From IMG/VR virus record IMGVR_UViG_3300021963_000086, positions 1-64,000 of that record: a stretch of 64,000 nucleotides of DNA, one strand, 5' to 3'. This document shows positions 1,697-58,913 of the stretch, piece after piece (within the stretch, counting starts at the first letter, position 1; every line of letters starts with the position of its first letter). Position numbers and translations under genes: made by a program. The DNA comes from a virus. Under the pieces are notes generated by a model. It had not been told where the DNA came from and made no database searches. It worked only from the letters and a program-made list of their open reading frames with translations.

Positions 1697-2131
1697 TTAG
1701 CCGTTTAATTTGTCTTTAATATGGGAGCCATGTACTCGAACCTGGATGTGACCGTTGTACCAGTCTGCAGATTCTAAAACCTTATGTGTAAATTGTTCTC
1801 TAGCCTCTATGTATGAGCATTCTGCCTTTGATTTGCAATAGTATAAAATTTCTCGTGTAAAATTTTCTTTGCCTAGGTTTTGTACGTCTTTGTTGAGTTG
1901 ATCGTTTGAGCCATAGTAGTCGCGCCAATCTGAATCAATCTTGGAGCGAATCTTCTTTTTCTTTTTGTTGCCGTTTTTAAGTTTTACTGTTTTGTATGTG
2001 GTTTTTGAGAATTTTGCTAGTTTTTTGCCTATATATTTGCGTCCGTTAGTGTTATTAGTAATAAGATACACGAATCCTATACAATCTTCCGGAAGTGTTT
2101 CTACAGGAATACCTTGAAATAACCATGTCAT
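1697..2131 (-). CDS. GIY-YIG family nuclease
   Basis: The 144-residue protein has the two strands of a GIY-YIG catalytic fold: GFVYLITN near residues 19-26 and KYIGKK near 32-37. A DWRDYYGS segment and a Glu in YIEAREQ near residue 110 fit the catalytic Glu region. GIY-YIG proteins cut DNA, and in T4-like phages they are often free-standing (Seg-type) homing endonucleases. A lysine-rich stretch (KNGNKKKKK) lies between the motifs. It is the last gene of the long minus-strand train that begins at gp55. The start is the ATG at 2131, with AGTAGGG upstream. The target site and homing activity are unknown. Confidence 0.75.
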   Translation of the reverse strand: MTWLFQGIPVETLPEDCIGFVYLITNNTNGRKYIGKKLAKFSKTTYKTVKLKNGNKKKKKIRSKIDSDWRDYYGSNDQLNKDVQNLGKENFTREILYYCKSKAECSYIEAREQFTHKVLESADWYNGHIQVRVHGSHIKDKLNG

Positions 2132-2149: not shown

Positions 2150-2806
2150 TTAGATCTGTCCTATCAGATCTTTGAGATTGGGCCGTGTATAGTAAATGAA
2201 TGTTACTGCGGCACGTTCATAAACACGATTTACTTCTTCTACCGTATTACACTCGTTTATTTCCCTAACCGTTTGTAAACGGGCCATTTCAAGTTTGTAT
2301 AGTGTTGTATCTTCTTCTTCTAATTTGAATTTGATTAATTTGATTGCCTGTTCATGTGTAATTTTGTGTGCCTTAGCGAACCCGTGTACCCATTTGTTAT
2401 CCCAGTCATTATTTTTTTGAATAGTTAAGTAACGATTGAAAGTTTCCTTGTCATCAAAACTTCTTGCCATTGTATAGATAAATTCTAAGCTGTTAATAAA
2501 GTATGCAAGTGCATAGCACTTGGCTTTAATAGTATAAACTTGTTGTCTTTTCTCTTCTGTAACATAATGAAAATCGTCTCTTAACTCTACTTTTTCAGGG
2601 CCAAGGTTATAAACTCTAAAATTGTTAATTTCATTGTACATATTAAAATTTACATAACCTCTGTAAATTTTTAAATTTAATCCTAAATGCGCTACAGGCG
2701 GTACAGTGATATCACTGCTAACGTCAGTAGTGTACCAAATAACCAAGTTAGTATCTTGGAGACAAAGCATTTTACATCTATGATAAAAATGACTAGGTGC
2801 TTTCAT
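2150..2806 (-). CDS. Unknown protein, partner of PP-loop cassette 1
   Basis: I do not recognise a named family. The 218-residue protein has a mixed N-terminal half and a helical C-terminal half (THEQAIKLIKFKLEEED, then TVEEVNRVYERA). The same layout occurs in the protein at 49703-50323: a K-x-x-A-Y...AR helix, then T-x-x-A...FK, then C-T/EE-R near the C-terminus. Both sit directly beside an asparagine-synthetase-like PP-loop gene, so they look like distant paralogues with a shared job. Its start overlaps the stop of the PP-loop gene by 4 nt (ATGA), which implies translational coupling. Confidence 0.6.
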   Translation of the reverse strand: MKAPSHFYHRCKMLCLQDTNLVIWYTTDVSSDITVPPVAHLGLNLKIYRGYVNFNMYNEINNFRVYNLGPEKVELRDDFHYVTEEKRQQVYTIKAKCYALAYFINSLEFIYTMARSFDDKETFNRYLTIQKNNDWDNKWVHGFAKAHKITHEQAIKLIKFKLEEEDTTLYKLEMARLQTVREINECNTVEEVNRVYERAAVTFIYYTRPNLKDLIGQI

Positions 2807-3873
2807 ATGATTATAAGATCAGTAATATCATCAGTAGATTTAAACTGTCCGTCTTGTTTGTATATAATTGTCTTTTGCATAGTGCGTACAGTATGCTTTT
2901 GGCTGTAGAGCTTTTCCTTGTTCTTAACGTAGGCTTCGTCTTTGGTAAAATCAAAGATATATCTTTTCGGAAAATCTCTAAAGTCGCTGGTACTTTTAAA
3001 AGTAGGATTAGTGCTCATATACTCAAATGAATATGTAGCAAACTCATGATCGTAATAAAATCTAAAGACCTTATGATCATCATTATCAATACCCGTTACA
3101 TCGTAGTCTGACCAAACATAGGGTCTTACTAATTCATCTTGCCCGGCAAAGGCCTGACTAAACCACCAAGCCAGTTGACTAACAGAATTAATTTCAAAAG
3201 GCGCATGTTCTCTTAATCCTTCGATCACAGGTTCCACACATTTGCCTTCTGGATCGATTGCTCTCCAAACTTTTTCTAGTTCTTCTTTAGGTAAGTCAAT
3301 TGACTTACCCCCGTCAGGCCACCATTGATGTAGATCTTGAGTACCTATAATATAGTCTCCGATGTCACCAGTAATCAGCATTAGATTAGGATCATTCATA
3401 TCTCGCTGATGATCCATAGCCATAATGGGAATGTTAGGAAGTATAAATTCGTAGAATAGTTTAGAGTATTCTAAGATGCTACTGCTGGTCATGTTAAGTA
3501 CAAACTGCCCAGCTTCTAGTTTTTCTTTAAATCTAGGATGTTGTGCTAGAGCACATAGAACCTGTACGCTGTCAATACCTCCGCTATAACAAAGACTAAT
3601 AACTCTATCACCTGCTATACGATATATTTTGTCAGCAACAGAATCAGTAATTGCCACATATCTATCATACCAATCATTGGTCAAATTTGATAGATTATAT
3701 GTTACGGGTTTCATAATTACTTCTGCTTTAAGATCTCTTACGTTTTTTAATACGCCAAAACGATCTGCACCGAATTCGTAATGATTCGATATAAGTCTGT
3801 AATTCTTACGCCAACTAGGACTGTTAAATCTTAATGCAGACCAATTGGCCCATACATAGGTACGTTCACTCAT
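2803..3873 (-). CDS. Asparagine-synthetase-like PP-loop ATPase (cassette 1)
   Basis: The 356-residue protein carries a PP-loop SGGIDS (in SLCYSGGIDSVQ, near residues 97-102), which binds ATP pyrophosphate in adenylating enzymes of the N-type/asparagine synthetase group. Further on, LITGDIGDYIIG (near 166-177) matches the asparagine-synthetase-type G-x2-D-x3-G segment. There is no N-terminal glutaminase domain, so it should not release ammonia from glutamine itself. The protein at 48633-49706 is the closest relative in this window (SGGIDS then LTGEMADNVFG). It overlaps the halogenase gene by 8 nt. It probably adenylates a carboxylate or amide to drive condensation; the substrate is unknown. 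Confidence 0.7.
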   Translation of the reverse strand: MSERTYVWANWSALRFNSPSWRKNYRLISNHYEFGADRFGVLKNVRDLKAEVIMKPVTYNLSNLTNDWYDRYVAITDSVADKIYRIAGDRVISLCYSGGIDSVQVLCALAQHPRFKEKLEAGQFVLNMTSSSILEYSKLFYEFILPNIPIMAMDHQRDMNDPNLMLITGDIGDYIIGTQDLHQWWPDGGKSIDLPKEELEKVWRAIDPEGKCVEPVIEGLREHAPFEINSVSQLAWWFSQAFAGQDELVRPYVWSDYDVTGIDNDDHKVFRFYYDHEFATYSFEYMSTNPTFKSTSDFRDFPKRYIFDFTKDEAYVKNKEKLYSQKHTVRTMQKTIIYKQDGQFKSTDDITDLIII

Positions 3874-5443
3874 CTGTGTAAATGTTGTCTTTTAAGTATT
3901 GGTATAGGGTCGGTGAATTATTTGCGGCCTCTTGCCATCTTGCTTTTTTAATCTCAAAACTTTCAACTATTCCATTAACGTCAGGTAACTGATTATCTAG
4001 TTTAATGTCTACAGAATCTAATAGCAAGTAATTTAATCCTGTAGAAATCCAGGTTATACCTTGTGTGGGGTCTATGGAATTAATATGCATCTTTGTATCA
4101 GCCAAAGGATAAAAGCCTTGACCAGTATTTGGTTTAAGGTTTTCAATTCCTGGACAATATGTACGATTAGCATTGGCCTTCCAGTACTCTGTATCGTCCC
4201 TTACACTGAGAGCATAATGTTGTGCCACAAATTCTGCAAAGTTCCTAAAGATTGCAAAAGTAGAAGCGTTATAAGCATCTTTTTCCCATTGTGTAATAGC
4301 AGGACGTTGTAAAACTTTTATTAACTTGAATAAGAATTGGTGAACACTAAACAATCCGTTGGATTCTAAAGGTTCAATGAATCCTGCACTTAACCCAATC
4401 GCAACTACGTTTTTAACAAAGGTGCGTTCATGAATACCTACACGCATTTCGATATTTTTGTATTCTAGCGCATCTACTTCTTCTCTAGTTCGAGGATATA
4501 ACATTTTATCACTCATTAGATATTGTTTGAATTGCTCTAGTGCATCAGCATCATTAATAAACTTATCACTATAAACATAGCCTGTACCTAAACGCGACCA
4601 TAATGGAATATTCCAAACCCAGCCATTGTCAATAGCAGTACAGTTTGTAAACGGCTCTAATTCTGTTTCTTTATTTTTATAAGGTAAACGAGTTGCCCAT
4701 GCCTTGTTATTAGGTAGCATATCACTATAACTGATAAATGGTTCATTGAGTGCGTTTAGCAACAAACTCTTAAATCCAGTGCAATCAATAAACAAATCGC
4801 CCTCGACTCTATTCAACGGATTGCTTTCAAGTTGTAAACTTTGTATACCATGTTGTCTTACGTGTACATAAACAACATCATCTTCAATACGTTTAACACC
4901 CCGCGGCAAACAATAACGATCACGCAACCATGCACCAAACTTTGTAGCATCAAAATGATATGCGACATCTCTATTTGGGTTGAAGTTGTCAAATGTCATA
5001 TCTTTGTTAGGATTATATTTGTTGTTTTCAAATAATGCGGCACTAGGGAAATAGCATCGCGCAAAATCTTGTACAGGTGTTTCAGGGTGAACATGTTTCT
5101 TGTAATACCAATCGTAGATTCCTGTCTGCGTCCCGTCTAATAACACCCGGCCAAATGGATAATGGAAGCTACCGGCATTCTTTTCATAAAAATCCGTAAA
5201 CTTGATACTAAGTTTGTAGCTAGCATCAGTAAATTCCATAAAGTCTTTTTCGTCTATTTCTAACCAATTAGTATAGTCTCTAATGCCACCAATAGTACTT
5301 TCGCCTACTCCAATAATAGGAATGTTAGGACTTTCAATTACTGTAATATCTTTGTCAGGAAATGTTTTAATAAGAATAGCGGCTGTCATCCAACCAGCAG
5401 ATCCTCCTCCTACAATTACAATTTTGTTGTTTGGTTTAATCAT
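3866..5443 (-). CDS. Flavin-dependent tryptophan-type halogenase
   Basis: This 525-residue protein has all the hallmarks of the PrnA/RebH family, which chlorinates or brominates an indole or similar aromatic ring using FADH2, O2 and halide. The FAD-binding GGGSAGW motif is at residues 12-18. K81 (in SIKF) aligns with the catalytic lysine that carries the haloamine or HOX. The halogenase motif WVWNIP lies near residues 273-278, and EPLES near 356 contains the substrate-side glutamate. Length matches the family (about 510-540), so the enzyme looks intact. A partner flavin reductase was not seen and may come from the host. Related halogenases have been annotated in T4-like cyanophages. The substrate could be free tryptophan, a peptide or another aromatic compound. 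Confidence 0.93.
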   Translation of the reverse strand: MIKPNNKIVIVGGGSAGWMTAAILIKTFPDKDITVIESPNIPIIGVGESTIGGIRDYTNWLEIDEKDFMEFTDASYKLSIKFTDFYEKNAGSFHYPFGRVLLDGTQTGIYDWYYKKHVHPETPVQDFARCYFPSAALFENNKYNPNKDMTFDNFNPNRDVAYHFDATKFGAWLRDRYCLPRGVKRIEDDVVYVHVRQHGIQSLQLESNPLNRVEGDLFIDCTGFKSLLLNALNEPFISYSDMLPNNKAWATRLPYKNKETELEPFTNCTAIDNGWVWNIPLWSRLGTGYVYSDKFINDADALEQFKQYLMSDKMLYPRTREEVDALEYKNIEMRVGIHERTFVKNVVAIGLSAGFIEPLESNGLFSVHQFLFKLIKVLQRPAITQWEKDAYNASTFAIFRNFAEFVAQHYALSVRDDTEYWKANANRTYCPGIENLKPNTGQGFYPLADTKMHINSIDPTQGITWISTGLNYLLLDSVDIKLDNQLPDVNGIVESFEIKKARWQEAANNSPTLYQYLKDNIYTDE

Positions 5444-6557
5444 CTGTTCTCTCCGGTGTTTGTGTTGCTAATGTTATTTCCACTAGTTTTGTAGACTTTA
5501 ACACTATAGGATCTTTGCCCTCTATTAAATTGATCATTTCTTTGATAGGTAGTATTACTGCTTGTTTGTTATCGTCATTAACACCTGCCGCAGTTTTTAA
5601 TATATCTGTGTAATGCTTCATACGACTCTTAGGTAACTTGTTAATAAAGTTATCACGCATAACATTACCATACAGTTGTTCAAAGCCTGTATACTTGCGA
5701 GTAGGAATCATTTCTGGAAAGTGGCTCAACGCCATTTGCGGTTTAAACAAATAATGGAAACATCGCCACCAAGTGGCAGGATTTGGATGCCATACGCAGA
5801 ATGTGTCATAAATCATATCCTGTGCTCTATAATAGTTTTGCATAACAGGATCAGTTAAGTAGCTGTGGATTAGTTCTGGGCTCCACATATAAAATTTACT
5901 AGTACCCTCAAACCCGCTTTCAATCATGTGCTGTTCAATAGGCAAGGGTTTCATATACCAAGTTGGTGTGGAAAGACCATTAGACATTAAAGGTAATGAT
6001 TGGTTAGGGCAACTTGCAGGATTTACAACTACCATCATAATGTCACCGCCAGCCATGATATAGCAACGGTCTTTACAATGATCCATAGCCGCGGTCTGCA
6101 CAATAGTTTCAGCATTACTCATGCCGTATTTTTTAGCGTACTCTACACCTTTACCAGTATAATGTTTAGGCAAATCTAATACAAGTTCTTCGTAAGGTAC
6201 ATTAAACTTTTTGCAAAACTTATAAGCATTGTCTGTATCGTGACTATTAATAACGTTATTAAATTCGTCTTTATAAGTAACGATTAATGCAGTAAAAGGT
6301 ACTTTGGCTTCTATTAAGCTAAGGCAAACCATTTGACTATCGCTACCACCACTTAGTCCAACTACAATAGGTTTTGTTGTATTATTTGCAATGTCTTTGG
6401 AGGCCTGTACACATTCGTGGCGAAAGCCCAATGACGGGCGACTTAGTGTACCTATAGTAATTTTGTAGGGTTCGTCTGGAACTCGACGACCAAACCATTC
6501 ATCTCCCCAGCCCCATTTGTAATGGTTGTCTTTACTATACTGGAATTTAGGCTCCAT
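5436..6557 (-). CDS. PP-loop ATPase, HDT subfamily (cassette 1)
   Basis: The 373-residue protein has a PP-loop LSGGSDSQ (near residues 68-75) followed by a signature H-D-T-x2-A-x3-C (SHDTDNAYKFC, near 110-120). It also has a C-terminal KYTGFE motif. The same three elements occur in the proteins at 47822-48640 and 51708-52685, which defines a subfamily within this phage. PP-loop enzymes of this kind adenylate their substrate (as in QueC, TilS and asparagine synthetase). The gene overlaps the halogenase by 8 nt and the DUF3750-like gene by 11 nt, so all three are translationally linked. The reaction is not known. Confidence 0.7.
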   Translation of the reverse strand: MEPKFQYSKDNHYKWGWGDEWFGRRVPDEPYKITIGTLSRPSLGFRHECVQASKDIANNTTKPIVVGLSGGSDSQMVCLSLIEAKVPFTALIVTYKDEFNNVINSHDTDNAYKFCKKFNVPYEELVLDLPKHYTGKGVEYAKKYGMSNAETIVQTAAMDHCKDRCYIMAGGDIMMVVVNPASCPNQSLPLMSNGLSTPTWYMKPLPIEQHMIESGFEGTSKFYMWSPELIHSYLTDPVMQNYYRAQDMIYDTFCVWHPNPATWWRCFHYLFKPQMALSHFPEMIPTRKYTGFEQLYGNVMRDNFINKLPKSRMKHYTDILKTAAGVNDDNKQAVILPIKEMINLIEGKDPIVLKSTKLVEITLATQTPERTDD

Positions 6558-7083
6558 GAGACCCCCACCATTGTCTAGATCTAGAGCCTATAGAAAAGAA
6601 AGGATAATCTATATCTAGTTTTAATTTATGCATCAAGTAAGATGTAAATGTATTGCAGTTATTTGTTAACAAGTTAAATTCTGTATTCTTAAAAGGATAC
6701 TCGTCACACGCAGATACAAAATCTTCATAATAAAGTTCTTTGTGCCAAGATCCAGGATTGCTTGCAGTATATACAAGTTTAGGATCAGCACCAAACCATC
6801 TGGCATTAGGATGTCTTATACTAATAAATGGCGCATGATCATAATATGAATCAGTACCATGATAAAGGATAGTTGCTTTTTGTACATCTAACGTTTCTCT
6901 ATCAGTGTATTCGACTGTTATATAATCTTTGTGTTTTTTAGACCATAGAGTAATATACGAATGCTTGCCACCTAAATAACCTTTAAGGTGCCATGCTCGT
7001 GCATTAATATAATGTATGCCGGTAGTACTTAATTCCATCGGCACTAAACTTTGATCACAAATACGCCAATCTTTAAAAATCAT
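6547..7083 (-). CDS. DUF3750-like protein, possible papain-fold enzyme
   Basis: The 178-residue protein matches what I recall of the DUF3750 family: a GGKHSYITLW segment near 38-47, a WFGADPKLV segment in the middle, and a C-terminal NNCNTFTSYL block followed by a conserved IGSR. In family members the corresponding text is GPNSNTF with AIGKD. The conserved His, Cys/Asn and Asn pattern recalls permuted papain-like (NlpC/P60-like) amidases or acyltransferases, so His41 and Cys142 are candidate catalytic residues. Placement between the PP-loop gene and the oxygenase suggests it acts on the same product. Family assignment is moderate; function is unproven. Confidence 0.5.
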   Translation of the reverse strand: MIFKDWRICDQSLVPMELSTTGIHYINARAWHLKGYLGGKHSYITLWSKKHKDYITVEYTDRETLDVQKATILYHGTDSYYDHAPFISIRHPNARWFGADPKLVYTASNPGSWHKELYYEDFVSACDEYPFKNTEFNLLTNNCNTFTSYLMHKLKLDIDYPFFSIGSRSRQWWGSHGA

Positions 7084-7919
7084 GCAGTTACCTTTTCAAA
7101 TTCCTTATAAGGGCTTGCAGGAGATTGCTCCATAAAGTAATAATTGTCATGTTGACGATCATAGGCTTTGCGCCAATTGGATTTATCAGTCTCCCAATCG
7201 CCAGTTGGTTGAGGATCGTGAATCATGTAATTATAAGTATCAACACCAGAAACCATTACTGTAGATTCTGGTGCTCTATTTAAAATAGGTTTACATTCTG
7301 TACTTGCAAAAATCATACCCATAGCAACACGACTAGTAGATGCTCTATTAGGACCAGATCCATGAATAATATAAGGACTGTGCAATAGTACGCTACCAGC
7401 CGGTACTGTAGTTTTAACACGCTCCTTAGGTAAATCTTCGTCCACAGTTTGGCCGCGCATTAAAAGATTAGTGTCAGTTTTAACATCTTTGTGTCTACGT
7501 TGAAAAACTCTATGACTGCCTTGTACATATTCAAGACTGCCGTGTTCAGGTACAACATCATCGAATGCGAACCATGCGGTAACTGCTAGATGTTTCTTGT
7601 CAAAGTTCCAATAAGTAGCATCTTGGTGGAAACTAACATCCTTGCCATCACCCGGCTTTTTAATCCAAAATAACGTGTCCCAACAATGAATATTCGGCCC
7701 AATAAGTTCAGTTAAGGCTTCTATCAGCTTAGGACTGCGACTAATGCGATCGACAAAAGGAAACAACACATTACTTTTACAACGATAGTCGCTGTTCATT
7801 AGTTTTAGTTGATCTTCGGTATCTAGTGCAATTTCTTTATAAGCTAGTGCTTCTTCTCTTGACATAATTTGAATAGGCCCCACCCATCCATTTTGTTCAA
7901 ATTGTTCTTTTAATGTCAT
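7080..7919 (-). CDS. Phytanoyl-CoA dioxygenase (PhyH) family oxygenase
   Basis: The 279-residue protein has the iron-binding H-x-D of the Fe(II)/2-oxoglutarate oxygenases (H98 and D100 in SFHQDATYW), a distal H186 (IIHGSGPN) and R197, which should bind the 2-oxoglutarate carboxylate. The EHGSLEYVQGSHR block near 125-137 is typical of PhyH. These enzymes hydroxylate, and sometimes halogenate, carbon atoms of small molecules. It overlaps its neighbours by 4 nt on each side. Together with the halogenase it suggests oxidative tailoring of a small molecule or peptide. Confidence 0.88.
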   Translation of the reverse strand: MTLKEQFEQNGWVGPIQIMSREEALAYKEIALDTEDQLKLMNSDYRCKSNVLFPFVDRISRSPKLIEALTELIGPNIHCWDTLFWIKKPGDGKDVSFHQDATYWNFDKKHLAVTAWFAFDDVVPEHGSLEYVQGSHRVFQRRHKDVKTDTNLLMRGQTVDEDLPKERVKTTVPAGSVLLHSPYIIHGSGPNRASTSRVAMGMIFASTECKPILNRAPESTVMVSGVDTYNYMIHDPQPTGDWETDKSNWRKAYDRQHDNYYFMEQSPASPYKEFEKVTA

Positions 7920-8377
7920 GTTATATCCTTTTCAGTTCGATGAAACGTTATTCTTTTTCCTAAAGCAGTTAACGTATCCATCATCTTTTTGTTTTGAGAA
8001 TGCACATCGCTTCTCATTTTTTTACAACCTGCGGCTTTACCTAATGCTTCTAAATGTGTGTGTAAAAATTTATAAATTCCCCGGCCTCTAAACGGTTGTT
8101 CTACAGCGCCAGCATAAATTTGTATTAACTTGATATGTGCATCATCTTTAATTTCAAATGCAATCTCACCTACAACTTGACCATTTATTTCTGCATAAAT
8201 CACCTGTGTTCTATTGGTTGCAAGAAATATAGGTAACGACCAACCCTTGTCCATTAATTCTGCATGGTGTCTCATAAAAGGACTTATTGCCGGAGTGTAA
8301 GCAATTTGAGTAGAATGTTTGATAATTACTTCTGCTCCTTTTTTATCTGTAACGGTTGCTATAATTTTTTCAGTCAA
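7916..8377 (-). CDS. GNAT acetyltransferase, paralogue 1
   Basis: A 153-residue GNAT-fold protein. The acetyl-CoA-binding motif A is EQPFRGRGIYKFLH (near residues 95-108), followed by HSQN in place of the usual motif B. It is clearly related to the adjacent gene at 8370-8840 and to 20031-20483: all share a PxxxxMxxxAxLxDxGW-like front half and R-G-[KR]-G. It overlaps its neighbours by 4 and 8 nt. It probably N- or O-acetylates the product of this cassette or a host molecule; the substrate is unknown. Confidence 0.8.
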   Translation of the reverse strand: MTEKIIATVTDKKGAEVIIKHSTQIAYTPAISPFMRHHAELMDKGWSLPIFLATNRTQVIYAEINGQVVGEIAFEIKDDAHIKLIQIYAGAVEQPFRGRGIYKFLHTHLEALGKAAGCKKMRSDVHSQNKKMMDTLTALGKRITFHRTEKDIT

Positions 8378-8840
8378 GATGTTTCACCATTCTAATAAAC
8401 TCAGGGACCATACCAACTTTAGCACAACTTTCTTGTCGTACTATGTTATTAACATGTACAATACTACCAATTCTATCACATCCTTCTTCTTTGGCAATTT
8501 TTTCTAACCAAGGATGTAAGGCAGTATATACACCTTTTCCTCTGTGTGTATCTTCTACACAACTTAATAAAATATACAACATTCTTTGTGTTGGGTGAAT
8601 TTCGTATATTATGGCCCCAACAATTGATCCCTTAAGGGTAGCGTAAACAGCACTACTATTATTAGATCCGCTCATAACTTGAAGTGCATGATCATTGTCA
8701 ATAAGTTGAGCCATATGGCGCATATAAAAACTACACACAGGGCTCATAGCAAGAGATTGACAGTCCCATAATTCAAGAACGTTTCCGTCCTTGTCTTTTG
8801 CTTTTGCAATAGCCCGATCTTTAGGAATTATCTTACTCAT
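8370..8840 (-). CDS. GNAT acetyltransferase, paralogue 2
   Basis: A 156-residue GNAT protein with motif A EDTHRGKGVYTALH (near residues 105-118) and a VHVNN motif shared with the protein at 20031-20483. It is a tandem paralogue of the gene at 7916-8377, which suggests a duplication. It starts inside the stop of that gene's upstream neighbour order (8 nt overlap) and is itself coupled by 4 nt to gp46. Confidence 0.8.
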   Translation of the reverse strand: MSKIIPKDRAIAKAKDKDGNVLELWDCQSLAMSPVCSFYMRHMAQLIDNDHALQVMSGSNNSSAVYATLKGSIVGAIIYEIHPTQRMLYILLSCVEDTHRGKGVYTALHPWLEKIAKEEGCDRIGSIVHVNNIVRQESCAKVGMVPEFIRMVKHLD

Positions 8841-10615
8841 ACTTCAATCATATCAACATCAAAACCAAATGTTGTAAATCCATTTTCTTTAGTTACTTGT
8901 AGGATAGTATTTACACGGCCCACCAATTCGTCTCTGTGCGAAATCAAAAACACATTTTTCTTTTGTTCACGACCCATTTTCTTAAGTACACCTAAGGCAC
9001 TATCTACTCCGTTTGGATCCATACCGCTATCTACCATTTCATCAATAAACAAAAGATTCAGCGGGCTGTTCAAACTTTCAAAAACATCACGGAATGCCCA
9101 GCTTAAACCTAGGATAAGTCTATTGCGTTCTCCTCTCGATAAATTATCAAAATCAAACTCTTGTCCTAACTGTGTAATGCTTACAGATAAATCACTTTCA
9201 AATCTAACTTCGTGTGGTAAGTTTAGCTCTGTTAGATAGTGTTCTAGTCTGTGATTTAAGTAACTAAGATTCTGCTCAATGATCTTACGACGAATAAAGC
9301 TATCTTTGTTTGTTAACAGTTTGAGCAAAAACTCTTGATGTTCAAGTAGCTTACTTAATTGGTTAACTTTAGTCCAATCAATCTCAACTAATGCACTATT
9401 TTGTAAAACTACAATCTGTTCGTGGTAAGGATCACTTTCTGTGTACCTTGTTTCTAACTGCTGATGTAAATTACTTAACGTAGTCTTATGGTTGATTGCA
9501 TCATCGATACTAATATACTTAACCTTGGGTTGGGTACCCATGGACCCAGTTAGCTCTTGGAGCTTAACTTCTGTTTGCTCTAGAGCAAGTCGGTTTTCTT
9601 CTAACTCAGTACGAACAACACCTATTGCACTTTCGAGTTCTGCAAGCATCTTGTCGTGACTTTGATCGTGCAACTCTTGACCGCAAGCATGACACTTGTG
9701 ATCTTTAGTGGTATTAAGTGCAGTAGTTAAATCAGTCAATTGAGTAGTCAAACGTTTAACTGCTGATTGCTCGGTTGCAAGATCCTTGTTTAGTCTTTTT
9801 AACTGTGATTCTTGTTCTTTCCACACAGTTAACGCCGCATGGTTTGCAAGCTCTTGTTCGATATCAATAGCATCGAGTTCATTGATTGCGGCTGTTAGCT
9901 TTTCAATATCTTCATCTCTCTTGCGTAACCAAACACCTGCTCTGCGTTCTAAATCTTCAATGCTAGTTTTAATTTTAGTATTGCTTTCTTGTTGTGCTTT
10001 GATACGGAACTCTTCTTCCTTGATACTATCCTTTACAGACTTACTTTGCTCTTTAAGCAATTCTGCCTTTTCAGACAGTAATGTAATCCCTAGTAATTGT
10101 TCAATAATAGACCGTTGGTCATTGGCTTTCATTCCTAGAAAAGGTTCTGTAAAGGTGTTCAAGGCCACAATATGTTTGAACATATCATAGCCAATACCTA
10201 ACACTTGCTCTATGTGCTCTTGGGTAAGTCTGTTTTCCCCTTGTCCTTCATCTGTACCGGCGTCATTAACCTCGCTATCGTCGACGATGAATTTAAAGAT
10301 GTTTGGCTTGCGACCTCTTTCAATTCTGTAGTTGTGTCCGTTTTTTTCGAACTCGATAGTAACCAACATACCTTTTGAGTTTGTTTTGTTAACAAGATTA
10401 TCTTTCCTAATGTTAGTAATGGCTTGTCCATACAAACCATAACACAGAGCATTGACCAGTGTGGTCTTACCTGTACCGTTACGACTGCCGTCTCCGCCTA
10501 GGTCCATATTCTTACCCAGAACCAACGTTAGTCCGTGTTCATTAAGTTTGACAGCCTGGGTTACATTACCCACGCTCATAAAGTTTTTGACTGTTATATT
10601 TTTTACAGTTATCAT
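8837..10615 (-). CDS. 46: Recombination endonuclease subunit gp46 (Rad50/SbcC-like)
   Basis: The 592-residue ATPase has a Walker A GTGKTT (K50), a long coiled coil split by a zinc-hook CHAC (near residues 306-309), an ABC signature LSRGERNR (near 488-495) and a Walker B LLFIDEM (near 520). T4 gp46 (560 residues) pairs with gp47 to resect DNA ends for recombination-dependent replication and to degrade host DNA. Here gp47 lies directly upstream in the same transcript. It is complete and slightly longer than T4's. The downstream start of the GNAT gene overlaps it by 4 nt, which ties the accessory cassette to core replication genes. Confidence 0.95.
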   Translation of the reverse strand: MITVKNITVKNFMSVGNVTQAVKLNEHGLTLVLGKNMDLGGDGSRNGTGKTTLVNALCYGLYGQAITNIRKDNLVNKTNSKGMLVTIEFEKNGHNYRIERGRKPNIFKFIVDDSEVNDAGTDEGQGENRLTQEHIEQVLGIGYDMFKHIVALNTFTEPFLGMKANDQRSIIEQLLGITLLSEKAELLKEQSKSVKDSIKEEEFRIKAQQESNTKIKTSIEDLERRAGVWLRKRDEDIEKLTAAINELDAIDIEQELANHAALTVWKEQESQLKRLNKDLATEQSAVKRLTTQLTDLTTALNTTKDHKCHACGQELHDQSHDKMLAELESAIGVVRTELEENRLALEQTEVKLQELTGSMGTQPKVKYISIDDAINHKTTLSNLHQQLETRYTESDPYHEQIVVLQNSALVEIDWTKVNQLSKLLEHQEFLLKLLTNKDSFIRRKIIEQNLSYLNHRLEHYLTELNLPHEVRFESDLSVSITQLGQEFDFDNLSRGERNRLILGLSWAFRDVFESLNSPLNLLFIDEMVDSGMDPNGVDSALGVLKKMGREQKKNVFLISHRDELVGRVNTILQVTKENGFTTFGFDVDMIEV

Positions 10616-10626: not shown

Positions 10627-11646
10627 TTACGCTAAACTATTGTAAATGTCAACTAGCATCTGCTTGTCTATTACTTCACTATCGATTGCAGTAAGCTGAT
10701 TTAGAACAATAGTATCAACACTTTCAAATTTGATTTCACCGCCGTCCCATTCAGTTGCGTGTTCATCTTTCTTAGACGGTATGAAATTGATTTCTCGTAG
10801 ACTGTAAGTTTCTAAAAAGTTTTCTTTTAAGAAATTTGCTTCTTCATAGCTAATATCTACATCAACAGTAACACGAGCAAATGTGTTACTGTCTAAGTGT
10901 TTATCTGGGTCTTCTATTAGTTGACTTAGGGTAAGAGTGCGAAACTTTGGAGCCCCGGGCCAAGTTTTATATTCTGGTTTCTTACCCCACTCTAACAACA
11001 TCATACCTCGATCGTCATCTCCTGCATCGGCAAAGTTATGTGGGAAAGCGTTTCCGATATAATGTACATTGCCGCTAGATTGTCTTTTATGAAAGTGCCC
11101 GCTGAATACATATTCTTGGTTAGGGAAGTGTTGATGGTTAAGTCCGCCATGGTCCGGCATCTGTACCATAGCATTCATGTAGAAGTTAGGTAATTCAAAG
11201 TGACCAAAAACATATTTGCTTTTAATCTCTTTCATAGCTTTCCATTCTTCTTCTACTAACCAAGGACATAGTGTAACATTTCCTTCAGTCATAATCTCAT
11301 TGACCATAACAATATTGTTAATAGTACGAGTAAACGGAAGACTGTTGATTTCGCGTTTTTCTCTGTAATATAGATCGTGATTGCCTGCAATAAAGTAAAC
11401 AGTCTTAAAATTATTGCTCAATGTTTCTAAGTTACTAACAGTATAGTTTAAGGTACTAACGTTAACTGTTGCACGATGATGGTGCCAATCGCCTAAGAAG
11501 ATGCAGGTTTCGGCACCTTCTGCTTTTGCTGTTTCGCAAAACCAATTAACAAAGTTTTCACAGTCTTGATTATGTGCTCGACTATTTTGTCGCATACCAA
11601 AGTGAATGTCTGTGAAACATGCTACCTTCTTAAACAAATTACTCAT
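10627..11646 (-). CDS. 47: Recombination endonuclease subunit gp47 (Mre11/SbcD-like)
   Basis: The 339-residue nuclease has the calcineurin-like phosphoesterase motifs: DIH (D13, H15), GDWHHH (D53), GNHD (N89, H90) and SGHFH (near 185-190), which bind two metal ions. With gp46 it forms the Mre11-Rad50-type complex. The length equals that of T4 gp47 (339). The start overlaps the stop of a small membrane-protein gene (ATGA). Confidence 0.95.
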   Translation of the reverse strand: MSNLFKKVACFTDIHFGMRQNSRAHNQDCENFVNWFCETAKAEGAETCIFLGDWHHHRATVNVSTLNYTVSNLETLSNNFKTVYFIAGNHDLYYREKREINSLPFTRTINNIVMVNEIMTEGNVTLCPWLVEEEWKAMKEIKSKYVFGHFELPNFYMNAMVQMPDHGGLNHQHFPNQEYVFSGHFHKRQSSGNVHYIGNAFPHNFADAGDDDRGMMLLEWGKKPEYKTWPGAPKFRTLTLSQLIEDPDKHLDSNTFARVTVDVDISYEEANFLKENFLETYSLREINFIPSKKDEHATEWDGGEIKFESVDTIVLNQLTAIDSEVIDKQMLVDIYNSLA

Positions 11647-12806: not shown

Positions 12807-13424
12807 ATGCGTCTCAATGAAATCGAATCTAAGTTTTTAGTAGTTTACCCTGGTCGTTTCCAGCCTTTTCACATAGGGCATCGTAAGGTTTACGACAGTT
12901 TAGTGAAACAATTTCGCTCTAGCCCCGTTTTTATTGCTACTAGTAATAAAGTTGAACTACCAAAAAGCCCATTTAACTTTGAAGAAAAGAAGCAAATGAT
13001 GCTGTCTACAGGTGTACCTAACCAAGCAATCGTGCAATGCAGAGTACCTTATCAACCCGTAGAAATTACTGAAAAATATGATCCTGAAAAAGTAATCCTT
13101 GTGTTTGCAGTAAGCCAAAAAGATATGGAAACTGATCCTCGTTTCAGTTTTAAACCCAAGAAGGACGGATCACCTAGCTATTTACAACCTTTTTCAGGAA
13201 CAGAAGAATACCAGCCATTTGCTAAACACGGATACGTTATTGTATCTGAAACGTTTCCGTTTACCGTAGCAGGTAAGCCAGCAACAGGAGCGACACAAAT
13301 TAGAGAACTATATGCAAACGCAAACGAAGAAACACGCATGAAGATTGTTACAGATTTATACGGCAACTTTAATCAAGACATTTACACGTTGTTCAACGAA
13401 AAACTAGGAGCACAAAATGGCTGA
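12807..13424 (+). CDS. Cytidylyltransferase-like nucleotidyltransferase
   Basis: The 205-residue protein has the HIGH-superfamily nucleotide-binding motif GRFQPFHIGH at residues 16-25, near the N-terminus. Such enzymes transfer a nucleotidyl group to a phosphate, as in NMN adenylyltransferase or CTP:phosphocholine-type enzymes. The usual C-terminal ISSTxxR motif is replaced by TGATQIRELY (near 175-184), which fits the family. Genes annotated as cytidylyltransferase are commonly found next to gp53/gp5-type baseplate genes in T4-like cyanophages. It overlaps the next gene by 8 nt. The substrate is unknown; NAD metabolism is one option. Confidence 0.8.
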   Translation: MRLNEIESKFLVVYPGRFQPFHIGHRKVYDSLVKQFRSSPVFIATSNKVELPKSPFNFEEKKQMMLSTGVPNQAIVQCRVPYQPVEITEKYDPEKVILVFAVSQKDMETDPRFSFKPKKDGSPSYLQPFSGTEEYQPFAKHGYVIVSETFPFTVAGKPATGATQIRELYANANEETRMKIVTDLYGNFNQDIYTLFNEKLGAQNG

Positions 13425-19206: not shown

Positions 19207-19436
19207 TGCATTACTGGTTGTTCAATTCTTTGAACTTTATCTTTCTTTTCTACAATGCCGTCTACTAATTTGTCAAAATCAGAATCAGATAGAACAGTTT
19301 TATAAATGGTCATAGCCTGAGCTAGCATGACTCCTGCTAATACCGTAGGGTCATATTCATTTTTAGAAAGATGGGAAGTTAGTTCCCAGTATAGTTGATA
19401 TGCGTTTTCTAAATTTTTGTCCATATTAGCAACCAT
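19203..19436 (-). CDS. Small conserved-looking phage protein
   Basis: The 77-residue protein is helical (NAYQLYWELTSHL, LAGVMLAQAMTIYKTVL). The start may be ATG 19436 or, more likely, ATG 19424, just after the upstream stop. No function can be assigned. Confidence 0.55.
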   Translation of the reverse strand: MVANMDKNLENAYQLYWELTSHLSKNEYDPTVLAGVMLAQAMTIYKTVLSDSDFDKLVDGIVEKKDKVQRIEQPVMQ

Positions 19437-20031
19437 TATTGTTCAATGATCGAACTACATCGTCAAACGCAGGATTGTTTGCTAGTCTAATAGCAAATGC
19501 AACTCTGCAATTTTCATTAGTACGATTATCTATAGAATGCCAAAAATCTACTTTAAATGCAGTAGGACCACTGGCATCACACTCGTCGATAATTTCCCAA
19601 TCCTTAGGATCAGCTTGATTAGCTCCTTCAGGGAATCCTGCACGTGGCCCGTTACGATAATCAAAGAAACCTAATTTATATTGATCGGCACGTACCCAAA
19701 CCATTCTACTCCCGTTACATCCTCGTAAAGGTAAGTTAATGGTTGCATGACGAGGATCATGTGCTCTATCAATATGCAATCCGCCCATGACTTTTTCTCG
19801 GCACACAAATATATTGATGTGATCAACACTCAAGCCTGCTGTATACAAGTCTCTAATAATTTCTAGATCCGTACCTAAATCTTCTAGGACTTCCATAGTA
19901 AAAGGATCCCAATAATGGTTTCTTTTTACAGTATCTCTTCGTTCAACCATTGCGTCGATGTCTTTGCTAAATTTAGCATTAATTTTTGCTATATCATCGG
20001 CGTATGATTTTTGTAAATGATAATAGTTCAT
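19426..20031 (-). CDS. 2-oxoglutarate/Fe(II)-oxygenase-like protein
   Basis: The 201-residue protein has the cupin-like metal triad H86-x-D88 (GGLHIDR) and H165 (DFWHSIDN), plus R176 in a terminal R-V-A-F-A-I-R strand that should bind 2-oxoglutarate. The arrangement recalls aspartyl-beta-hydroxylase-like enzymes (HID...WHSxxN...R). Such enzymes hydroxylate amino-acid side chains. Together with the GNAT gene next door (start overlap 1 nt) it could modify a protein or small molecule. The specific substrate is not shown. Confidence 0.65.
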   Translation of the reverse strand: MNYYHLQKSYADDIAKINAKFSKDIDAMVERRDTVKRNHYWDPFTMEVLEDLGTDLEIIRDLYTAGLSVDHINIFVCREKVMGGLHIDRAHDPRHATINLPLRGCNGSRMVWVRADQYKLGFFDYRNGPRAGFPEGANQADPKDWEIIDECDASGPTAFKVDFWHSIDNRTNENCRVAFAIRLANNPAFDDVVRSLNNNGC

Positions 20032-20483
20032 TACCCACCCCTTGGTAGCTCTTTATATGCTTTGTAGTAAAGCAGTTCCCTACCTGTTTCTTTTACGTTT
20101 TTAATGGCTACATCATTATTTACATGTACAAGGCTGGAGATTGATTTCTTCCCTCGTTCAACTTGAATACTTTCAAATAATACATACATGGCTTTGTGCA
20201 AGCCCCTGCCTCTGTAACTAGGTACAACAGAAGTCAATGTAATCCATACTGTTTCGGCATCCCCGTCTTGATAACAAAGGTACCCTACACATTTATTTGA
20301 TTCAGGATCTATAACGGCAACTACTTTAGATGTGCTCTGCCAGCCCTGAATAGGTTGGGCCCAACCTTTATCTACCATTTCTGCCCATGCAATAAGATGC
20401 ATACTATAGCACGGACTGTTATCTAACGGACCATGATATATTTTGTAATCTCTATTAAACTTGTCTTTGAGTCTGTATTTCAT
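20031..20483 (-). CDS. GNAT acetyltransferase, paralogue 3
   Basis: The 150-residue protein has GNAT motif A VVPSYRGRGLHKAMY (near residues 91-105) and the VHVNN motif also present in the protein at 8370-8840. The front half (AWAEMVDKGWAQPI) matches AELMDKGWSLPI of the 7916-8377 protein. The three genes are therefore paralogues spread over two loci. Confidence 0.78.
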   Translation of the reverse strand: MKYRLKDKFNRDYKIYHGPLDNSPCYSMHLIAWAEMVDKGWAQPIQGWQSTSKVVAVIDPESNKCVGYLCYQDGDAETVWITLTSVVPSYRGRGLHKAMYVLFESIQVERGKKSISSLVHVNNDVAIKNVKETGRELLYYKAYKELPRGG

Positions 20484-39802: not shown

Positions 39803-40807
39803 ATGGCATACGATGTCAATAAAACAAATGGTTCGTTATTAACAACTATCCCCGATGGTACACTAGATATTAGTACTAGTCTTCGCTTGCTAGGTAAGAA
39901 CTATGCAGGCTATGGCGAGATTATGGCCGAAAACTTAGTAGCAATGCTAGAGAATTTTAGTTCTGCGGCGGCCCCAGGTAACCCACTAGAAGGTCAGTTA
40001 TGGTATAACAGCGAAACTAAACGTATTTCTGTTTACGATAATTTAGGCCAATGGAAAGAACTAGCACAATTAGTCGTTCAAGAAACAGAGCCAACATATA
40101 GTGGCCGTAGAGAAGGCGACTTTTGGGTAGAATCAGATTCTAAACAACTATACATGTGGGACGGCACACAGCACGTACCGATTGGATTTGCTGGCGCAAC
40201 TACTACCATTCGTGCAGTTAAAATTCGCGACACAAGCAACAATGCTCACAATGCGCTTAAGGCAGTTGTAGGTAGTAGCGTAATAGCAATTATCAGCACC
40301 GATGCAGAATATACACCTAATGTTAGCGAGGGATTTGGTGCAGAATTTGTAACAATTGGTCCAGGTGTTAATTTACCTGCACGTACTAATGTTAAATTTC
40401 GTGGTATTGCTATGCAAGCTGAATTTGCTGACGTTGCTGAATTGTATGCCAGTGATGTAAATTATCAACCAGGTACTGTTGTTAAGATTGGCGGAGACGC
40501 AGAAATAACACAAACAACTACAGCAGACGATACAGAAGTGTTTGGTGTCATTTCTGACAATCCAGCTTACTTACTAAACAGTGGTCTTTCTCGTACAAAG
40601 TTAGCACTACCTGTTGCATTAGCAGGTCGAGTACCAGTTACAGTACATGGGCCAGTAAAGAAAGGTCAACGTTTAGTTAGCAGTCATATTCCCGGCGTTG
40701 CTAAAGCCTCTACTAACCCAGATGCATTGGCAATTATTGGTAGAGCATTAGAGTCTTCCGACGTTGAAGGAATCAAGTCAATTGAGGCAGTAGTAGGAGT
40801 CAAATAA
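39803..40807 (+). CDS. Tail fibre-like protein
   Basis: The 334-residue protein begins with YDVNKTNGSLLTTIPDGTLD and has LEGQLWYNSETKRISVYDN (near residues 62-80), a repeating phage tail-fibre theme. The C-terminal region has AELYASDVNYQPGTVVKIGG (near 214-233), a motif widespread in fibre C-terminal domains. It likely forms a fibre or collar and overlaps the next gene by one base. Confidence 0.7.
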   Translation: MAYDVNKTNGSLLTTIPDGTLDISTSLRLLGKNYAGYGEIMAENLVAMLENFSSAAAPGNPLEGQLWYNSETKRISVYDNLGQWKELAQLVVQETEPTYSGRREGDFWVESDSKQLYMWDGTQHVPIGFAGATTTIRAVKIRDTSNNAHNALKAVVGSSVIAIISTDAEYTPNVSEGFGAEFVTIGPGVNLPARTNVKFRGIAMQAEFADVAELYASDVNYQPGTVVKIGGDAEITQTTTADDTEVFGVISDNPAYLLNSGLSRTKLALPVALAGRVPVTVHGPVKKGQRLVSSHIPGVAKASTNPDALAIIGRALESSDVEGIKSIEAVVGVK

Positions 40808-41841
40808 TGTCCTATGGTGATCAAGGCACAGTTGTTTCAGCAACCGGTTGGAACGCATTAACAACAAAAGTTAATAAAGTGTTTGGGGATTTTACTCCAA
40901 ACTCAGCACCTTCAACTAATGCAGAAACACAAGAAGCATACAAGTATGGTTGGGGTAATACAGCTCAAGCAGACAATGTTTCACAAGGTGACTTGATTGA
41001 AGCCACAGTATTCAACAGCGCCATTGACGTAGTAAACGTTAGTGCTCATGTAACTGGTGACTTACCCAGTCAAGCATACTTTCAGCGTAGAGCCGAAGGC
41101 GAACTGATTAGCTTGTCCGACAGCGATTTAGGTCAAACATTACAATATTACACTAATCTAGTATACAATCATAAAAACACATTAGCCACATATCACGGAA
41201 GCATCGTGACCCCGGCCGGCGGAATCATTAATCGTACCACACCTTGGAAACGTTACATGGCGGCCAGTTTCAAGGTAACATTTGACAGTTACGACAAACT
41301 ACGTTATTTTTTTAATGCAGGTGGCCAAATTAAAATTACACCTACAGCGTCTGGCGGTACTACAGTTGGCTATACAGACTGGAAACATCTTGTAGATGCT
41401 TGCGGAGATATTATTGTAAATGTTAATGGTGCAAAAACTACAACTAATCTTGGTATATCTACCACGGTTGGAATGTACCAACTATCACAAACTTATCAAT
41501 TAATGATGACTGCATCGTCTACATATTCTAGCTATGGCGGGTACGGTGGTTATGGCGGATATGGTGGTTATGGTGGATACGGCGGTTATGGTGGTTATGG
41601 TTCCGGAATCCAAATCAAAATCTGGGGCAGACTAGTTGGTAACAATCAGCTCTTAATCAAAGTAATTTTTGATAACATGTACTTCCGTAGATGGATAAAT
41701 GGTACTACTGGTTTCCATGTAACTTACTTAAAAGCAGATCCAGAAACCAATCCACAAAATGAAAACGTTGTGTTTGATGTAGATCCTCCGACCCAATTAG
41801 AAGTATTAACTACGTTTGATACTGGTGGCGACGATTCATAA
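40807..41841 (+). CDS. Tail protein with seven YGG repeats
   Basis: The 344-residue protein shares the fibre-like character of its neighbour. Its front half contains NAETQEAYKYGWGNTAQADN and ends near residue 240 with MTASSTYSS. Then seven YGG repeats plus YGS (residues 243-265) follow, and a beta-rich end (IQIKIWGRLVGNNQL). The glycine-rich stretch recalls the glycine-rich motifs of T-even gp38 adhesins, which form polyglycine II layers and determine host range. It may be a receptor-binding tip; this is inferred from resemblance. Confidence 0.6.
   Translation: MSYGDQGTVVSATGWNALTTKVNKVFGDFTPNSAPSTNAETQEAYKYGWGNTAQADNVSQGDLIEATVFNSAIDVVNVSAHVTGDLPSQAYFQRRAEGELISLSDSDLGQTLQYYTNLVYNHKNTLATYHGSIVTPAGGIINRTTPWKRYMAASFKVTFDSYDKLRYFFNAGGQIKITPTASGGTTVGYTDWKHLVDACGDIIVNVNGAKTTTNLGISTTVGMYQLSQTYQLMMTASSTYSSYGGYGGYGGYGGYGGYGGYGGYGSGIQIKIWGRLVGNNQLLIKVIFDNMYFRRWINGTTGFHVTYLKADPETNPQNENVVFDVDPPTQLEVLTTFDTGGDDS
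41533..41595 (+). repeat. Seven tandem 9-bp repeats encoding Tyr-Gly-Gly
   Basis: Seven units of TAY-GGN-GGN in frame, followed by TAT GGT TCC. Codon third positions vary between copies, which suggests the repeat is old or under selection at the protein level, not a fresh DNA slippage. Confidence 0.95.
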
Positions 41842-47075: not shown

Positions 47076-47829
47076 CGCATATCATCTCAGTTGGCTAGCT
47101 GAAGAACTACATAAAGCTAAGTTTATTGATGTAAGTAATAGACAGTTCTATAATTGGTATAACAGTATAAACGATGGCAATCATGATAAACCTCAACCAG
47201 AAGTTTATCTATTTGCGGCCTTTGACGAGCTAATGACTATTTGTCCAAATAACCTATTCGGAAGAGTAATTAGTTTAGTAGAAGATTATCCTACAGTAAA
47301 TTGGGTAGATGCTTTTAGTAGGTTTCAAATACGTAGTAAAATAACAGCGGCCAATACGTTGTTGGCAACAGAAGCAGAGTTTGGCGACATTTGGATAATG
47401 GGGGGTTGGGTAGGAGTGTTACCTATGCTACTAACCGAAAAGTTATATCCTAATAGGTACAATACTATCGTAAGCTACGACCTAGACAATATCGCTAATC
47501 TAGCAGGCGAAAAACTAGTAAATTCTACTCGATACAGCGCAGAATTCAAGGATATCTATGCCTTAGACTATACAAACTTTTCAGGTACTGTCGTGAATAC
47601 TATCTGCGAACATTTAGACAGGTTTGATATTTGGCAAAACCAAATCCCTTCAAACACACTAATGTTACTCCAAAGCAACAACATGTTTGGAGTAGTTGAT
47701 GATCATGTTAATTGTGTGAGCAATATGGACGACTTTGTTAGTCGTTTGGATTGTAAAGAAATTATACATAAAGAAACAAGCACCTATAACGATCAATACG
47801 AACGCTATACGGTGCTTGCTATTAAGTAA
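47062..47829 (+). CDS. Methyltransferase-like protein
   Basis: About 255 residues starting MKKFNAYHLSWLAEELHKAK at 47062; an upstream ATG at 47035 lies inside the preceding gene. It has IWIMGGWVGVLPML (near 112-125) as a glycine-rich loop, then SYDLDNIANLAGEKL, the acidic end of the second strand, which fits a SAM-binding Rossmann fold. It ends convergently with the PP-loop gene at 47822, overlapping by 8 nt. Tentative. Confidence 0.5.
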   Translation: MKKFNAYHLSWLAEELHKAKFIDVSNRQFYNWYNSINDGNHDKPQPEVYLFAAFDELMTICPNNLFGRVISLVEDYPTVNWVDAFSRFQIRSKITAANTLLATEAEFGDIWIMGGWVGVLPMLLTEKLYPNRYNTIVSYDLDNIANLAGEKLVNSTRYSAEFKDIYALDYTNFSGTVVNTICEHLDRFDIWQNQIPSNTLMLLQSNNMFGVVDDHVNCVSNMDDFVSRLDCKEIIHKETSTYNDQYERYTVLAIK

Positions 47830-48640
47830 TATCAGAAGTAATGATAATGTCTTGCTCTGGATATAATGCAACTAGTTCAGCACGTAATGCCTGATCTTCT
47901 TCTTGCACATTTTCAAAACCGTTGAACTTAACTCTAGGTGCAATGCCTAGATAGTGTTGATAGAAATCTGCCTTACGGTCTTTACTTGACTGCCCGTAGT
48001 TCATGGTAGGCCAAAACTCGTCATTGATCCACGCCTCAAAAACTGATTTGTCTAATTGGAAAGGTAGTGCATTACCGTCAATACCTCTGAGTCTGCGATA
48101 AATTTCTACGCTAAAGTGCATTGGTTTTTCAGTCAGTTCTACAATGTCACCTGCTTGACCTTTAAACTTTAGTTCCGGCTCACCAATACAAAGCATAGGA
48201 TAACCAAACGGCAACATAGCCTCCATCATCTTCATGTATACAAGATATTGTGGACTTGTACAACGTGTCATTTCGGCTATTTCTAAACTATGGTTTTTTT
48301 GTTCTACCCAAAGACCCACAGGATCAAAACTAATTACTCTAGGATAATATCCATGTGTCTCGCACCACTCAACTGCATGATGTGTATCGTGCTGGTTCTT
48401 ACCTGCATAATCAAAGATTATCGGAGTAAAAGGTCTACCCATATTATGCAAAATTGTAGCAACTGCTTCGCTATCTATTCCGCCACTAAGTGCAAGAACA
48501 ATATTAAAAGGAGTAACATTGCCTAGGTATGTTTCCATAGCCGTTATCCAATTGGGACTGTTGTTTGTGCGCTCTAAATTATACTCTAGAGTAGCACCAA
48601 AATCACTTACTTTAAGATGATCTAATTCAAAGTTAATCAT
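47822..48640 (-). CDS. PP-loop ATPase, HDT subfamily (cassette 2)
   Basis: The 272-residue protein has LSGGIDSEAV (near residues 49-58), a QHDTHHAVEWC signature (near 81-91) and a C-terminal KFNGFENV, like the proteins at 5436-6557 and 51708-52685. These suggest one subfamily of adenylating enzymes. It ends the second cassette. The substrate is unknown. Confidence 0.7.
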   Translation of the reverse strand: MINFELDHLKVSDFGATLEYNLERTNNSPNWITAMETYLGNVTPFNIVLALSGGIDSEAVATILHNMGRPFTPIIFDYAGKNQHDTHHAVEWCETHGYYPRVISFDPVGLWVEQKNHSLEIAEMTRCTSPQYLVYMKMMEAMLPFGYPMLCIGEPELKFKGQAGDIVELTEKPMHFSVEIYRRLRGIDGNALPFQLDKSVFEAWINDEFWPTMNYGQSSKDRKADFYQHYLGIAPRVKFNGFENVQEEDQALRAELVALYPEQDIIITSDIT

Positions 48641-52646: not shown

Positions 52647-52654
52647 TATGTAGG

Positions 52655-52662
52655 TATTTATT
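52655..52662 (-). promoter_or_regulatory. Possible late promoter AATAAATA
   Basis: On the minus strand AATAAATA (7 of 8) lies immediately before ATG 52646, so a transcript would have almost no leader. It would give late expression of cassette 2. Confidence 0.35.
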
Positions 52663-58862: not shown

Positions 58863-58913
58863 AAAAAAGTGTTGTTTTTACGCAACAAAAATCTGTTGTT
58901 TTTTAGCAACACT
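58863..58913 (-). terminator. Terminator after the GGCT-like gene
   Basis: On the minus strand AGTGTTG and CAACACT can pair around an inner loop, followed by TTTTT; a smaller GTTG/CAAC hairpin next to the T-run is an alternative. It ends the GGCT-like transcript. Confidence 0.55.

Follow-up and report, generated by a model that had tools for sequence, protein, structure and literature searches.

Gene order, recurrence and predicted chemistry of a modular PP-loop ATPase cassette at the gp46/SegE locus of an uncultured phage

The window analysed here comprises positions 1-64,000 of IMGVR_UViG_3300021963_000086, an uncultured virus record of 79,269 bases, and our subject is a run of eight minus-strand genes that lies in it between a gp46 homolog and a SegE-like GIY-YIG endonuclease gene. 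Downstream from gp46, the order is GNAT acyltransferase 2 (8370-8840; Acetyltransf_1 5.6e-9), GNAT acyltransferase 1 (7916-8377, with a TTG start; Acetyltransf_1 2.1e-9), a PhyH-type Fe(II)/2-oxoglutarate (2OG) oxygenase (7080-7919; PhyH 8.6e-24), a DUF3750 protein (6547-7083; DUF3750 3.8e-6, Peptidase_C97 1.7e-4), PP-loop A1 (5436-6557), which carries SGGSDS at 69 and is a predicted amide-forming AMP-ligase, a flavin-dependent, tryptophan-type halogenase (3866-5443; Trp_halogenase 1.8e-102), a second PP-loop ATPase, PP-loop B1 (2803-3873), with SGGIDS at 97 and the AsnB-like GDxGD motif as GDIGD at 169, and a gene of unassigned family (2150-2806), whose product has N-terminal strands and C-terminal helical hairpins and is referred to below as the partner protein of PP-loop B. 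All eight overlapping genes listed in the initial annotation are thus present. The run is headed, also on the minus strand, by a homolog of the recombination nuclease subunit gp47 (10627-11646), recognised from its position and from 79-80% identity to gp47 of three related contigs (L011, L012 and L016), followed by the SbcC-like subunit gp46 (8837-10615; PHROG 77, 9e-109).

Every junction from gp46 through the partner gene is an overlap of 4-11 bases, and the only gap between gp46 and the SegE-like gene is one of 18 bases, at the partner/SegE junction. A single transcript and translational coupling with gp46/gp47 are likely from these overlapping frames; promoter- and terminator-like sites in a scan of the locus were not commoner than in shuffled sequence. 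Since independent contigs repeat this gene order, the layout is not due to chance. With such overlaps an additional gene would not fit inside the cassette, and no precursor peptide gene of the kind expected for ribosomally synthesised and post-translationally modified peptides or lasso peptides was found there, although one may lie elsewhere in the genome; nor did we see a carrier or a transporter in the cassette, in agreement with the initial annotation. At the other end, the boundary is set by the SegE-like gene (1697-2131, minus strand; SegE_GIY-YIG 1.4e-34), a protein that PHROG 447 tags as ‘NAD synthetase’, a misleading label and apparently a misannotation. Just 3′ of it, at 1535-1675 on the minus strand, lies a structured Polynucleobacter-1 RNA (Rfam RF01718, 98.4 bits) that the initial annotation overlooked. 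This RNA stands at the same place, after SegE, in five relatives (L010, L011, L012, L013 and L016), so the RNA family occurs in phages; its presence hints at a freshwater host, Polynucleobacter or a related bacterium.

An alignment-based search of IMG/VR with PP-loop A gave at least 220 confirmed relatives, and 80 loci were examined. In the same five relatives, the locus holds gp46, GNAT, PhyH, DUF3750, PP-loop A, PP-loop B, the partner gene and SegE, without a halogenase, and gp47 heads the run wherever the sequence covers it. The comparison with other phages that was proposed in the initial annotation therefore bore out the recurrence of the gene set but not the membership of the halogenase: the conserved unit is the core of the gp46/SegE locus, not a halogenase pathway. 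Co-occurrence was assessed by Fisher tests on 54 PP-loop loci against a background of 37 halogenase loci from similar phages, both dereplicated by nucleotide similarity. Desaturases are found at 19 of the 54 PP-loop loci (p 1e-5), PhyH at 10 (p 0.005), the partner gene at 14 and two GNAT families at 13 each, and none of these at any of the 37 halogenase loci; conversely, the halogenase is at 0/54 and 37/37, respectively. Used as the query, the PP-loop B pair returned two weak relatives only.

The halogenase itself is a VirX1-type viral enzyme of an already-known kind. Its closest solved structure is VirX1 of Cyanophage Syn10 (6QGM; 335 bits over residues 7-522), and the full-length Trp_halogenase match is accompanied by the features of a viral tryptophan-type halogenase, namely GxGxxG (here GGGSAG), the catalytic lysine of ASYK, WxWxIP (WVWNIP) and the catalytic glutamate (EPLES). 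Its annotated relatives are mainly from cyanophages. The gene directly follows gp46 in Synechococcus phages S-B64 and S-H35, and in a dozen IMG/VR loci it stands immediately before gp47 and gp46, so a place near gp46/gp47 is not new for a viral halogenase. Relatives of PP-loop A or B, the partner protein, PhyH or DUF3750 were found in the flanks of 0/67 IMG/VR halogenase loci, in a scan based on peptide patterns of the window's own halogenase, with distant halogenases outside its scope and some contigs short. Similarly, a tryptophan halogenase was found anywhere in 0/12 cassette contigs of 27-231 kb, which may be fragments and therefore give no proof of absence. The overlap between PP-loop A and B in L010 is four bases long, and it is exactly at this A/B junction that the window halogenase has been inserted, with both neighbours intact. 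Because the core recurs without the halogenase at the same locus and the relatives of the halogenase never accompany the core, the halogenase is an accessory insertion and not a member of the conserved unit. The gp46/gp47 region looks like an insertion hotspot at which the halogenase was an independent arrival. GNAT 1, which is 31% identical to GNAT 2, is clearly an independent insertion too, a copy that the core cassette does not have; GNAT 2 is the closer of the two to the single cassette GNAT of the relatives (41-45%).

The genes of the locus have diverged unevenly. Between the window and its relatives, the flanks are well conserved (gp47 79-80%, gp46 73-75% and SegE 82-89% identical) and PhyH is 75-96% identical, whereas the values fall to 41-60% for DUF3750, 41-47% for PP-loop A, 42-46% for PP-loop B, 41-45% for GNAT and 21-24% for the partner protein. 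The contrast is sharpest against L011, where PhyH (7080-7919) is 96% identical, the other cassette genes 24-58% and the flanks 75-87%. As PhyH is more alike to L011 than the flanks are, recombination is suggested, and the locus holds alternative alleles around a shared hydroxylase. Such unevenness is as expected if specificity were diversifying around a shared step. The catalytic motifs of the PP-loop and DUF3750 proteins are conserved in the relatives.

Pfam support for PP-loop A consists of short N-terminal PP-loop matches only. PP-loop B, for which Pfam gave no match, was identified by its SGGIDS motif and by profile comparison with PP-loop A, to which it is homologous (hhalign probability 99.7). 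The SGGxDS motif is present in all five PP-loop proteins of this phage (A1, A2, A3, B1 and B2). The AlphaFold (AF2) model of PP-loop A, built from a 25-sequence alignment, has a predicted local distance difference test score (pLDDT) of 88.8 and a predicted template modelling score of 0.90, and its predicted fold is of the asparagine/beta-lactam-synthetase type. In Foldseek searches, its top matches were beta-lactam, asparagine and carbapenam synthetases, followed by NadE and LarE; the best PDB match was beta-lactam synthetase 1MBZ (E 1.2e-7, probability 1.00, about 380 columns), with low template modelling (TM) scores of 0.3-0.42 among the matches and 0.33-0.41 for the full-chain comparison with the synthetase domain, so that the synthetase assignment rests on alignment E-values and not on tight superposition. 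On this model, we favour the inference that PP-loop A acts like an amide-forming synthetase and do not claim membership of that family. No N-terminal nucleophile (Ntn) glutaminase-type domain was found in PP-loop A by Pfam or in the model, in which about 60 residues precede the PP-loop.

According to the initial annotation, the idea of a small-molecule pathway would have failed had the PP-loop and DUF3750 proteins turned out to be known tRNA-modification enzymes. We found instead that the matches to MnmA, TtuA, TilS and QueC, like the sequence-profile match to NadE, are confined to the PP-loop segment. PP-loop A1 passes the Pfam cut-off for MnmA by 0.5 bit over profile positions 3-82 of 202 only, PP-loop A2 reaches that for QueC by 0.1 bit over positions 2-70 of 210 only, and the match of PP-loop B to TilS, its best (9e-5), is confined to positions 19-83 of the 317-residue TilS chain; all three assignments were rejected. 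Additionally, the C-terminal CxxC zinc site of QueC-type proteins is absent from A2, B2 and A3.

Among the remaining core proteins, PhyH is predicted to be hydroxylase-type and not a SyrB2-type halogenase because HQD at 98-100 is intact, with no HxA or HxG; the NCBIfam chlorinating-enzyme profile gave 46.5 bits against a cut-off of 226. Elsewhere in the window, at 19426-20483, a 2OG-oxygenase-like gene (HxD by eye, no Pfam match) and a third GNAT of the cassette family overlap each other. The DUF3750 match scores 28.1 bits against a curated cut-off of 25, and H41 (H41-S) and C143 (NC143NTF) are invariant in a 10-sequence alignment, which is consistent with a permuted papain-like enzyme of the NlpC/P60, LRAT or PPPDE type. 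The partner protein gave a fairly confident model (AF2, pLDDT 84.7) with no structural match in the PDB and, in BFVD, matches to uncharacterised phage proteins only. Genes of its family lie directly beside a PP-loop B gene in 23/23 cases. Two candidate identities were rejected for it: Acb2/Tad1, on a hairpin match (E 0.0028) below the curated cut-off and in 1/16 family members, and a tail-fibre chaperone, on DUF4376 fold matches at E 0.1-1 only.

The same phage carries a second, desaturase-type cassette on the minus strand at 47822-53116, likewise overlooked in the initial annotation. It comprises a GNAT (52658-53116; Acetyltransf_1 1.5e-8), PP-loop A3 (51708-52646, alternative TTG start at 52685; SGGIDS), a GNAT-like gene without a Pfam match (51092-51715) whose family also occurs in L005 (homologous to 3607-4194 of that contig), a membrane fatty-acid desaturase (50320-51099; FA_desaturase 4.5e-10, and DesA family 3.2e-15, below the equivalog cut-off), a paralog of the partner gene (49703-50323; BLASTP against 2150-2806, E 5e-5) beside PP-loop B2 (48633-49706; SGGIDS and GEMAD motifs), and PP-loop A2 (47822-48640; SGGIDS). 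Contig L038 has this set in identical order beside thyX at 65-84% identity (GNAT 70%, A3 65%, GNAT-like protein 84%, B2 81%, A2 65%). In three further contigs (L021, L022 and L026), a class III aminotransferase, nearest to γ-aminobutyrate (GABA) transaminase, lies between PhyH and PP-loop A, a position that indicates free amino-acid-type substrates, and other related cassettes add a nitroreductase, TauD, a radical S-adenosylmethionine (radical-SAM) protein or a Rieske protein. The cassette is therefore modular, with desaturase, radical-SAM or GABA-transaminase-like enzymes swapped in. Other genes of this phage include a nucleotidyltransferase resembling nicotinamide mononucleotide adenylyltransferases (12807-13424), a protein of the fibre region (40807-41841) that carries a long Gly-Gly-Tyr repeat, YGGYGGYGG, and a gamma-glutamyl cyclotransferase-like protein (58878-59336; GGACT 4.9e-11); a Bax inhibitor-1 family membrane protein (L009, 11752-12456; Bax1-I 3.6e-54) was also found in a phage genome.

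Our preferred reading, which we hold tentatively, is that phages carry a modular cassette, of which this locus is one form, for making a small amide-type compound. In its core, PP-loop A and PP-loop B, the latter together with its partner, would serve as amide synthetases alongside a hydroxylase (PhyH), a papain-like enzyme (DUF3750) and a GNAT. With an amino acid or an acyl compound as precursor, PhyH would hydroxylate a building block, PP-loop A and B would activate a carboxylate as an acyl-adenylate in an ATP-dependent step and then form the amide bond, the DUF3750 enzyme may transfer or trim an acyl or peptidyl group, and GNAT would cap an amine. In this phage only, the inserted VirX1-type halogenase could add a halogen, while in sister cassettes tailoring may fall to desaturases, GABA-transaminase-like or radical-SAM enzymes. 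Expression would presumably accompany that of the replication genes. We favour a small-molecule product over protein modification because the aminotransferase, desaturase and nitroreductase partners use free substrates, and we count in its favour the recurrent desaturases in phage cassettes and an acyl-CoA dehydrogenase gene that adjoins the PP-loop A gene in one bacterial genome. The modified small-molecule pathway of the initial annotation thus survives as the best reading, with the halogenase moved outside its conserved part. Candidate purposes are host takeover, defence evasion and signalling.

Several observations weigh against this reading. The proposed pathway has no known substrate or product, nor a known carrier or exporter, and without a glutaminase domain fused to PP-loop A the nitrogen source has no evident candidate. 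The TM-scores of PP-loop A are only 0.3-0.42, with NadE and LarE close behind the synthetases, and the prediction of a synthetase-type fold covers PP-loop A only. DUF3750 occurs in just 6/54 dereplicated PP-loop loci against 0/37 (Fisher p 0.078). The contrast of PhyH and the flanks with the PP-loop genes could come from recombination of whole alleles, and tail-fibre-type genes stand close to the cassette of L005 and to the second cassette, which would also suit modification of virion proteins.

This last point belongs to an alternative that we regard as unlikely yet worth weighing, in which the cassette modifies phage structural proteins such as tail fibres or adhesins: PhyH and the halogenase would alter side chains, the PP-loop enzymes would form isopeptide or amide links, and the partner protein would be a fibre-assembly-like adaptor delivering the target. 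The cassette of L005 adjoins a fibre-like gene, the second cassette comes after fibre-type and modification genes, cyanophage halogenases adjoin tail-fibre or structural and 2OG-oxygenase genes, and in Pelagibacter phage Mosig an island with desaturase, GNAT and Asp/Arg-hydroxylase lies next to the tail fibres; quick divergence of several genes would also fit host-range evolution. However, the first cassette is coupled to gp46/gp47 and not to late structural genes. In T4, gp46 and gp47 are early or middle genes. Partners such as the GABA-transaminase-like enzyme, the nitroreductase and the membrane desaturase work on small molecules or on lipids, and the very weak likeness of the partner protein to DUF4376 proteins, at E 0.1-1, is at noise level.

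It is improbable that these genes serve anti-defence or host takeover by acylating, amidating or degrading proteins of the host or signalling nucleotides. Arms-race genes typically show strong allele divergence at a fixed locus, as is seen here, and the Acb2/Tad1 hairpin match of the partner protein points the same way, but that match fails its curated cut-off and does not extend through the family, PADLOC, a defence-gene library, gives sub-length QueC matches on the PP-loop segment only, and the enzyme set is bigger than known anti-defence loci. A somewhat poorer prospect is a role of the PP-loop proteins in 7-deazaguanine (QueC-like) or other nucleic-acid modification, with neighbours that decorate a DNA or tRNA base. 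The phage does encode QueE-like and FolE-like proteins (L009 7347-8195 and 12696-13520; genome 69346-70194 and 74695-75519), and A2, A1 and B touch the QueC, MnmA and TilS profiles as described. Yet these matches stop at the PP-loop segment and A2 lacks the CxxC site, searches of the 79 kb record, which may be incomplete, turned up neither QueD nor a TGT-fold protein, desaturases and aminotransferases are ill-suited to such a role, and the full PP-loop A fold is predicted to be synthetase-like. Least probable of all is ordinary cargo, unrelated auxiliary genes without a shared function piled up at a recombination hotspot, which the independent insertions of the halogenase and extra GNAT would fit but which is opposed by core gene order and overlaps kept across divergent contigs, by a partner gene never found without PP-loop B in the sample and by the recurrence of similar sets at unrelated loci.

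Multi-step biosynthetic cassettes are seldom reported from lytic phages, and our literature searches found no paper describing this one. Among 50,697 annotated phage records, none matched PP-loop A, PP-loop B, DUF3750 or PP-loop A3, and a single distant one matched PhyH. Annotation pipelines would therefore give the system no name, even though its key enzyme, PP-loop A, has so many relatives in uncultured viruses. The analysis separates what is really conserved from a halogenase on which interpretation would otherwise centre, reveals an unusual mix of constant and fast-diverging genes at a single locus, and provides concrete enzymes open to activity tests, namely PP-loop A, PP-loop B with its partner, PhyH, DUF3750 and GNAT. 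More speculatively, and in our view doubtfully, the locus may represent a new, largely phage-specific biosynthetic class in which paired PP-loop amide synthetases and their obligate partner diversify fast at a fixed replication locus while the hydroxylase stays constant and halogenase, desaturase and aminotransferase modules are interchangeable, with related lytic phages making different bioactive amides during infection.

Compared with known systems, PP-loop A shares the SGGxDS motif with beta-lactam, carbapenam and asparagine synthetase B enzymes, which are also its best full-length fold matches, at low TM-scores. It differs from them in that a glutaminase-type domain is missing from the N-terminus, sequence identity is about 12% and no Pfam Asn_synthase match exceeds the cut-off. 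Beta-lactam pathways likewise pair such a synthetase with an Fe/2OG oxygenase, whereas no other clavam or carbapenem gene was recognised here. VirX1, an iodinase, is in its Syn10/syn9 copy only 38% identical to the window halogenase; other cyanophage halogenases likewise adjoin gp46/gp47, but the loci examined lack PP-loop, PhyH or DUF3750 partners, while the window copy sits inside a conserved cassette that is elsewhere halogenase-free. Outside phages, a bacterial scan with the PP-loop A1 alignment found three alphaproteobacterial contigs. The PP-loop A homologs of this group are strong (E 1e-60 to 1e-72), and two of them are accompanied by a GNAT and a degenerate second PP-loop, but no PhyH, DUF3750, partner gene or halogenase was found alongside; the gene is rare in the group, occurring in 4/23 genomes of one family and 2/385 sampled genomes of the class. 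In Mosig (L173, 53723-66283), no relatives of PP-loop A or B, the partner protein or DUF3750 were found in the 12.6 kb region searched, but its island beside the tail fibres combines a desaturase, a GNAT, a 2OG oxygenase (Asp/Arg-hydroxylase), an aminotransferase and a nitroreductase. Resembling the cassette in its kinds of enzyme, the modification island of this lytic marine T4-like phage offers a cultivable comparison system.

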